NCBI RefSeq assembly: GCF_002005225.1 | Contig: NZ_CP019724.1 | Coordinates: 8,412,001-8,476,000, forward strand | Source: Streptomyces pactum | GTDB lineage: Bacteria > Actinomycetota > Actinomycetes > Streptomycetales > Streptomycetaceae | Reading direction: 5' to 3' | Length of the DNA: 64,000 nucleotides | Part shown: in pieces, positions 37,387-37,604 of the stretch | How the letters are laid out: each line of letters opens with the position of its first letter | Numbering within the stretch: the stretch's first letter is position 1 | Position numbers and translations under genes: made by a program | Notes under the pieces: generated by a model | Databases searched by the model: none | The model's input: only the letters and a program-made list of their open reading frames with translations | What the model was told of the DNA's origin: nothing

Positions 37387-37480
37387 GGAGAGGTGCCCGG
37401 AGTGGTTTATCGGGGGCCTGAGCTTCGGCTCGACGGTCGGGTCCTATGGGCCCACGCAGGTTCGAATCCTGCCCTCTCCG
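37387..37480 (+). tRNA. tRNA-Ser-like RNA lacking an anticodon arm, copy 1
   Basis: 94 bases with tRNA hallmarks: 7-bp acceptor stem GGAGAGG/CCTCTCC, discriminator G, U8-G9, D arm CCCG-GAGTGGTTTAT-CGGG with the G18G19 pair, T arm GCAGG-TTCGAAT-CCTGC, and a long variable arm GGGTCC-TAT-GGGCCC as in tRNA-Ser. The 24 bases where the anticodon arm belongs form GGCC-TGAGC-UUCG-GCUCG-(AC)-GGUC, a 9-bp arm with a 2-base bulge and a cUUCGg tetraloop. I tried every 17-base window there; none makes a 5-bp stem with a 7-base loop. No CCA is encoded. Charging by SerRS is plausible but not shown; it cannot decode. Confidence 0.75.
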
Positions 37481-37510
37481 CAGTCCCGCCGGTTTATCGG
37501 AGCGGGTTTG

Positions 37511-37604
37511 GGAGAGGTGCCCGGAGTGGTTTATCGGGGGCCTGAGCTTCGGCTCGACGGTCGGGTCCTACGGGCCCACGCAGGTTCGAATCCTGCCCTC
37601 TCCG
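37511..37604 (+). tRNA. tRNA-Ser-like RNA lacking an anticodon arm, copy 2
   Basis: Second copy, 94 bases, 30 bases after the first. It differs at one base, in the loop of the variable arm (TAC instead of TAT), so every stem is identical, including the UUCG-capped arm that replaces the anticodon arm. No CCA is encoded; the sequence continues CCGTTTTCTCG. The spacer 37481-37510 contains another GGTTTATCGG, echoing the D loop. Two near-identical copies argue against chance and for recent duplication or gene conversion. Confidence 0.75.

Follow-up and report, generated by a model that had tools for sequence, protein, structure and literature searches.

A conserved family of serine-type tRNA-like RNAs without an anticodon, predicted to carry serine for azoxy-type biosynthesis, at a Streptomyces pactum locus

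In the valanimycin pathway, the seryl-tRNA synthetase (SerRS) VlmL works alongside VlmA, a seryl-tRNA:isobutylhydroxylamine transferase that uses seryl-tRNA to form O-seryl-isobutylhydroxylamine; the accessible parts of the sources describe no dedicated tRNA for this pathway (PMC9379638, PMC11705231), and a 2014 review, in its accessible text, states that how Ser-tRNA gets diverted away from translation is unknown (PMC4052509). Here, we analysed a 64,000-nt stretch of Streptomyces pactum DNA (hereafter the window) and focus on a tandem pair of tRNA-Ser-like genes (37387..37604) in which a UUCG-capped hairpin stands in the place of the anticodon arm. The locus resembles the valanimycin system in its PF09924-family transferase, its second SerRS and its predicted use of an aminoacyl-tRNA as the serine donor, as well as in the VlmB-like genes found at many of its relatives. 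We put at roughly 80% the probability that the RNA pair and its family are dedicated serine carriers, which SerRS charges and from which the predicted aminoacyl-tRNA transferase (AaT) takes serine for small-molecule synthesis of the azoxy type. It is also probable that they form a new class of RNA, one that has given up decoding to act as a serine-only carrier with its own synthetase and transferase, insulated from the ribosome.

The cell-wall tRNA-Gly of Staphylococcus retains a normal anticodon arm, and it differs from the RNAs studied here in amino acid (glycine versus serine) and destination (cell wall versus natural product). Its likeness to them is that a tRNA is reserved for non-ribosomal peptidoglycan synthesis (PMC3399842). 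Transfer-messenger RNA (tmRNA) is an aminoacylated tRNA-like RNA without an anticodon (PMC3985003, PMC2481249), but it has an mRNA-like part, carries alanine and acts in the ribosome, whereas all members of the present family are 83-106-nt cloverleaves with no added domain, in which ARAGORN calls no tmRNA. Allo-tRNAs share the serine type, unusual cloverleaves and diverse anticodons; they have a 12-bp acceptor branch (8/4 or 9/3), keep the anticodon and in several cases work in translation (PMC7609411), whereas the aligned members of the present family have 7+5 bp (7/5) and no anticodon loop. Finally, tRNA-Other of Bacillus cereus is a tRNA-like gene acting outside translation, but it keeps a Trp anticodon, has been reported only from the B. 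cereus group and lies in longer regulatory transcripts (PMC3399842). These comparisons follow the accessible portions of the cited papers. The initial annotation of this DNA knew of no described tRNA of this design, and our search of the open-access literature likewise returned no anticodon-less tRNA of this kind; none appears in the accessible text of two reviews, one from 2026 on natural products made with aminoacyl-tRNAs (PMC12945691) and one from 2020 on non-canonical tRNAs (PMC7609411). As far as seen, the pathway type is known and the anticodon-free carrier is new.

The two genes lie head to tail on the forward strand, each 94 nt long with 30 nt between them, and differ at one base. Copy 1 (37387..37480) and copy 2 (37511..37604) score 100.9 and 100.3 bits with model R1, respectively, and share the layout GGAGAGG-TG-CCCG-(11 nt)-CGGG-(24-nt hairpin)-(15-nt variable arm)-AC-GCAGG-TTCGAAT-CCTGC-CCTCTCC-G, which gives a 7-bp acceptor, T8, a 4-bp D stem whose loop contains GG, a 6-bp variable arm, a 5-bp T stem with TTCGAAT, and G73. 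In copy 1, the acceptor occupies 37387-37393/37473-37479, the D arm 37396-37414, the long variable arm 37439..37453 (covarying helix 4 of alignment A1), the T arm 37456-37472 and G73 position 37480; CCA is not encoded. At the place of the anticodon arm (37415..37438 in copy 1, 37539..37562 in copy 2), the 24-nt insert GGCC-TGAGC-UUCG-GCUCG-AC-GGUC combines GGCC/GGUC pairing, a 2-nt bulge, five further pairs and a UUCG loop, and this hairpin is backed in both copies by family covariation and a two-hairpin test (see below) and in copy 1 also by folding. Hairpins with a 5-bp stem and a 7-nt loop are present in both copies only outside the anticodon register. The sequence thus agrees with the initial annotation, which had described two 94-base class II copies with acceptor, D, T and long variable arms and G73, the same 24-base fold, and no anticodon arm. 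The free fold it proposed as a check gave a divided answer: on stretches without the first four bases, the replacement hairpin, variable arm and T arm form and the acceptor does not, with z-scores near zero (-0.45 and -0.02), so single-sequence energy lends no support and was dropped as evidence. The structural support for the pair is instead comparative, consisting of the two-hairpin folding of the family middles and the covariation of both hairpins. A sigma-70 promoter scan gave no match, and one terminator-like site was found, at the same rate as in shuffles.

Standard tRNA models do not recognize the pair. ARAGORN reports both copies as 'tRNA-???' with a 4-base pseudo-anticodon. A permissive Rfam scan, which reports just one best match per clan, gave only tRNA-Sec at the pair, scoring 27.8 and 27.7 bits where the gathering score is 47, so that the general tRNA model scored no better there; furthermore, RF00005 has 69 matches genome-wide (E <= 0.001), and the pair, not being among them, lacks the RF00005 recognition of a canonical tRNA. 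The check with tRNA and tRNA-Sec models suggested earlier therefore yields no standard tRNA call. For the comparison with tRNA-Sec, we take its features to be an 8-bp acceptor (8/5) and a UCA anticodon; the pair is 7/5, has no UCA loop and scores under the gathering score. Relative to a canonical elongator tRNA-Ser, the pair has the 7-bp acceptor, G73, C72, G2-C71, R4-Y69, C11-G24 and the long variable arm, and lacks the anticodon arm with its 5-bp stem, 7-nt loop and serine anticodon. Ordinary tRNA-Ser genes with GCT, TGA, CGA and GGA anticodons are present in the genome, in which the closest ordinary tRNA by model R1 is tRNA-Tyr (49.3 bits). As far as seen, the anticodon-free RNA falls outside each known kind considered; like a dedicated non-ribosomal carrier, it is genetically linked to a family of aminoacyl-tRNA transferases.

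Relatives of the pair occur in several actinobacterial genera. A DNA search of 392 Streptomyces genomes with the RNA gave 30 loci (L009-L038), and a search of named genome contigs with the neighbouring transferase gave 49 loci (L039-L087). The former were fetched by RNA similarity, so their likeness is partly selected, a bias of which the 49 transferase loci are free. An open scan, with the T-loop motif fixed and pairing required but acceptor and T-stem sequences left open, found 97 copies, 72 of them unique, and every one of the 72 has GGAGAGG as its acceptor and GCAGG/CCTGC as its T stem. We hand-picked 46 of the unique copies to cover a broad spread. Not one base pair of the acceptor, D or T stem varies among them, while the replacement hairpin and the variable arm show compensatory change, with 7 pairs altered at both positions (shuffle mean 2.7; 0 of 500 shuffles reach 7); the 45 invariant columns all fall outside these two variable hairpins. 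A wider set of 30 agrees, no shuffle of 500 reaching its cell count or score. A later pattern search, which fixes the acceptor sequence and overlooks shorter members such as the 83-84-nt copies of L015, gave 113 distinct members (window copies counted) with middles of 33-53 nt; acceptor constancy accordingly rests on the open scan. Exactly two hairpins form in 109 of 109 distinct middles versus 27-42 in 20 shuffles, and the replacement-arm stems are longer than shuffled ones (275 versus at most 213, summed over 70). We conclude that the tRNA-like pair belongs to a conserved family without any conserved anticodon. At one locus (L084:6011-6577), five copies stand in tandem, and in the copy at 6487-6577 the anticodon arm gives way to a perfect 8-bp hairpin capped by GAAA.

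Upstream of the pair and divergent from it lies AaT (36215..37315, reverse strand; LPG_synthase_C/DUF2156, PF09924 207.9 bits), whose homologues stand beside the RNA family; homology to its closest relative starts near 37210, which is probably the true start. PF09924 is the model that the azodyrecin authors use for VlmA in the accessible text of their paper (PMC9379638), and the likeness between AaT and VlmA rests on this shared Pfam family. The RNA gene lies divergently upstream of AaT in 39 of the 49 AaT loci (36 by strict scan and three by eye, namely L067, which is cut at a contig end, L081 and L082), and the AaT locus L045 stops at a contig edge. Across the 392 Streptomyces genomes, the RNA (E <= 1e-9) is found in 51, AaT (E <= 1e-60) in 80 and both in 49, so that AaT accompanies 49/51 RNA-bearing versus 31/341 other genomes. 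In the remaining two RNA genomes, G168 and G300, the only AaT is a distant one, matching part of the query at 35-36% and lying about 3 kb from the RNA gene; all 51 thus have an AaT homologue, and a looser AaT limit applied to 20 genomes without RNA and without AaT gave no match. Of the 51, 23 show a single RNA copy at E <= 1e-9. In a class-wide sample (n = 374), the RNA occurs in four genomes (G000, the window genome, G528, G665 and G666), all with AaT. A fifth match there (G635, 58.5 bits) was rejected as an ordinary tRNA-Ser, its UGA anticodon loop being read, and a 102-nt match of 59.0 bits in G392 was left unclassified. Where AaT is 50-58% identical (19 RNA-bearing genomes), 15 genomes have the RNA on the AaT contig at a distance of 2-32 kb and 4 have it on a different contig, suggesting that the linkage outlasts rearrangement. 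In a midpoint-rooted tree of 98 AaT sequences, with a few genomes entered twice, one clade (support 1.0) unites 77 RNA-bearing and 3 RNA-free members, and the other clade holds 16 RNA-free members with the third AaT of the window genome, requiring 3 label changes versus at least 13 in shuffles. The RNA family therefore goes with one clade of PF09924 proteins. The third AaT (L173, G000:C1:7195000-7213000; 52%) has VlmO-like, VlmH-like and flavin reductase neighbours and no tRNA-like gene, VlmO-like and VlmH-like being labels by description and position, without comparison to the reference proteins.

The second SerRS (41868..43151, reverse strand) exceeds the TIGR00414 cut-off (395 versus 301.65 bits), matches PF00587 and PF02403, and is 35% identical to the nearest other PF00587 synthetase of the genome. 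It shows the catalytic core and the N-terminal domain of a VlmL-type SerRS, with a narrow pass for the tRNA-binding N-terminal domain PF02403 (28.5 versus 28.2 bits). Bacterial serine identity comprises G73, C72, G2-C71, R4-Y69, C11-G24, a large variable region and G30-C40, the anticodon having no role, according to the accessible text of PMC9976931; the RNA pair has these elements except the anticodon-stem pair G30-C40, which has no counterpart. Together, the lack of a conserved anticodon, the serine identity elements, the nearby SerRS paralogue and the constant acceptor and T stems support, where testable, the initial reading of a class II serine-type RNA that is predicted to be SerRS-chargeable and would not decode. 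That reading also called for a search for the same arm beside SerRS genes elsewhere, and the expectation held in part: a SerRS paralogue recurs at 27 of the 49 AaT loci (two partial; tblastn), and 22 show none in the stretch examined, some being short contigs. Loci without a nearby SerRS would depend on the housekeeping enzyme.

The 22 loci without a SerRS would also suit RNAs that carry another amino acid, loaded by a non-serine synthetase, or that serve an enzyme other than the PF09924 protein. Such a reading fits with tRNA-Tyr as the nearest ordinary tRNA by model R1 and with the alanyl-tRNA that the azodyrecin authors propose for their VlmA homologue (accessible text of PMC9379638), but we hold it to be quite improbable given the recurrence of the SerRS paralogue, which in G665 stands one gene from an RNA triplet with AaT about 25 kb off, and the near-complete co-occurrence of the RNA with AaT. 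The G665 triplet (L169, G665:C134:42000-61900) is arranged in tandem, in a polyketide/AMP-ligase region of another family. A role of SerRS in self-resistance has been described for albomycin, as far as the accessible text goes (PMC9437257); self-resistance is conceivable for the cluster SerRS too, and it leaves the RNAs unexplained.

For serine carriers, we propose a mechanism in which CCA would be added post-transcriptionally and SerRS would read the variable arm, the acceptor and G73, none of which needs the anticodon. In the manner of VlmA, AaT would then transfer the RNA-bound serine to a hydroxylamine derived from an amine. Judging from their sequence, the RNAs would be unable to read codons, and a charged RNA without an anticodon would be lost to the ribosome, so that pathway serine would be kept separate from translation. 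What defines a tRNA is its anticodon, and a conserved family discarding only that part would be a tRNA kept for chemistry. If true, this would answer the printed question of how Ser-tRNA is diverted into an antibiotic pathway (posed in the accessible text of PMC4052509) and open it to experiments that need just a few RNAs and two enzymes. The failure of standard tRNA models to pick up such genes would become easier to understand, clusters for tRNA-dependent natural products could be searched for through the RNA, and aminoacyl carriers excluded from the ribosome would have a natural template.

The azoxy setting comes from the relatives of the locus. Gene clustering across the 49 AaT loci gave VlmB-like genes in 25, VlmO-like membrane proteins in 16, class III aminotransferases and aldehyde dehydrogenases in 15 each, acyl-CoA-dehydrogenase-like genes in 12 and flavin reductases in 5, the VlmB-like label being taken from database names, including that of a Kitasatospora setae protein at 87%. 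By annotation, one plasmid holds a family RNA, a DUF2156 gene, a VlmB-like gene and serS within 13 kb. The setting of many relatives thus bears the marks of aliphatic azoxy clusters as given in the accessible text of PMC9379638. In the window itself, AaT, SerRS, desaturase, FabI, transporter, ketosynthase (KS) and regulators show 78-90% identity to those of locus L039, in which genes for an acyl carrier protein (ACP), a ketoacyl-ACP synthase III (KAS III) and a VlmB-like protein sit beyond the KS.

Several observations weigh against the carrier reading. Charging, transfer and expression of the RNAs are predictions. In the covariation analysis, the pair-type count of the 46-sequence set is reached by 31 of 500 shuffles and the pair count of the wider 30-sequence set by 10 of 500. 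The Fisher value for RNA-AaT co-occurrence (1.8e-38) comes from related genomes and is no clean probability. Relatives of VlmO-like, VlmH-like, ACP and KAS III genes were not found in the 64-kb window, and a VlmB-like query matches nothing in the window genome, an empty answer with no built-in control; the pathway of this strain may be truncated, partly decayed or rewired; the RNA pair is intact. Additionally, 31 AaT-bearing genomes, ten of them with an AaT only 39-43% identical, give no RNA match above ordinary-tRNA level: with the broader model R2, 30 give 44-52 bits only and 1 gives none, and these matches, themselves unread, were taken as ordinary tRNAs because the tRNA-Tyr of the window genome scores in that range with R1. 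Nine AaT loci have no adjacent RNA gene, although all nine genomes carry copies elsewhere, and a model of adjacent-only linkage was rejected on this account. The AaT family evidently does not always need the RNA, and AaT clades without it may use ordinary tRNAs, in line with the alanine donor proposed for azodyrecin (PMC9379638).

AaT loci without an adjacent RNA, together with multi-copy, scattered genes, would likewise be expected of regulatory or decoy tRNA mimics that adjust the pathway by binding or sequestering SerRS (or the transferase) and donate no serine themselves. The tRNA-Other of B. cereus offers a precedent for a tRNA-like regulator, on the accessible text of PMC3399842. We regard this alternative as unlikely, since the constant acceptor stem, G73 and serine identity elements would be unneeded by a base-pairing regulator and the partner's family includes an aminoacyl-tRNA transferase.

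A fold with a standard anticodon loop would speak directly against an anticodon-free carrier; none exists in register in the window copies, but two of the 72 unique relatives have one, a 5-bp/7-nt arm with U33 that ARAGORN reads as TTT and TCG. These two (L037:12-98 and L073:9847-9934) are possible intermediates or chance. They are compatible with RNAs that still decode through a small hairpin loop used as anticodon, as are the anticodons that ARAGORN gives to many members; these calls correspond to many different amino acids, with 2- and 4-base anticodons among them, and in the 109 middles first loops of 3, 4 and 5 nt number 16, 62 and 25 (103 in all) and those of 6, 7 and 8 nt number 3, 1 and 2, which makes decoding extremely unlikely.

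The last point against serine carriers is that one genome has 15 copies over its chromosome arms and a plasmid, mostly amid unrelated genes, the pattern expected of a spreading element. This distribution, and the lone family copy on a plasmid of S. collinus, could be explained by tRNA pseudogenes in decay or by a repeat of tRNA origin spreading over chromosome arms. Such decay or spread is nonetheless very unlikely in view of the invariant columns of the 46-sequence set, all outside the variable hairpins, the compensatory change in both of these hairpins, the occurrence of the RNA only in AaT-bearing genomes within the samples searched, and a phage search in which copy 1 matched nothing. If the RNAs are serine carriers, scattered copies would work in trans, raising dosage. 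The neighbours of scattered copies, viewed by eye in 20 stretches from three genomes, are mostly unrelated.

The 15-copy genome is that of S. griseofuscus (G398, L108-L117), and its copies have diverged; those of L111 and L112 are flanked by near-identical short-chain dehydrogenase/reductase genes. In another genome, family copies accompany ACP and KAS III genes (L126, G394:C1:319800-337900), apart from that genome's AaT locus (L059). In S. pactum, the RNA pair, AaT and SerRS are duplicated identically in the window (G000:C1:74794-138793) and near 8.45 Mb of the 8.55-Mb chromosome; the pair being identical at both chromosome ends, the window is part of a terminal inverted repeat.

Several neighbours of the pair recur across the 49 AaT loci, as counted by tblastn with the window's genes. 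On the reverse strand, a fatty acid desaturase (34642..35766; PF00487) recurs in 39, a major facilitator superfamily transporter (33015..34652; PF07690, homology starting near 34397) in 35 and a FabI-type enoyl-ACP reductase (32217..32978; over the NF005908 cut-off) in 28. The FabF-type KS (43280..44470, reverse strand; NCBIfam) is 90% identical to the L039 KS over 388 aa and has relatives in 25; its open reading frame (ORF) as listed extends to 45403, with homology ending near 44470. A regulator of the Streptomyces antibiotic regulatory protein type (BTAD; 40958..41752, forward strand; PF03704) recurs in 33, and a TetR-type regulator beyond the RNA pair, as seen from AaT (37729..38364, reverse strand; PF00440) in 5. 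Homology to the L039 cluster ends at about 44470, and alcohol-dehydrogenase-like and RHS-repeat-like ORFs, identified by eye, follow up to 49332. On the other side, positions 5-31700 of the window hold large nonribosomal peptide synthetase ORFs, with condensation (C), adenylation (A) and carrier domains in the scanned part (5-15000). A 70-aa ORF at 31488 is MbtH-like by eye, with no family match, and the FabI gene stands beside a crotonyl-CoA carboxylase/reductase-type ORF, a CoA-transferase-like ORF and a P450.
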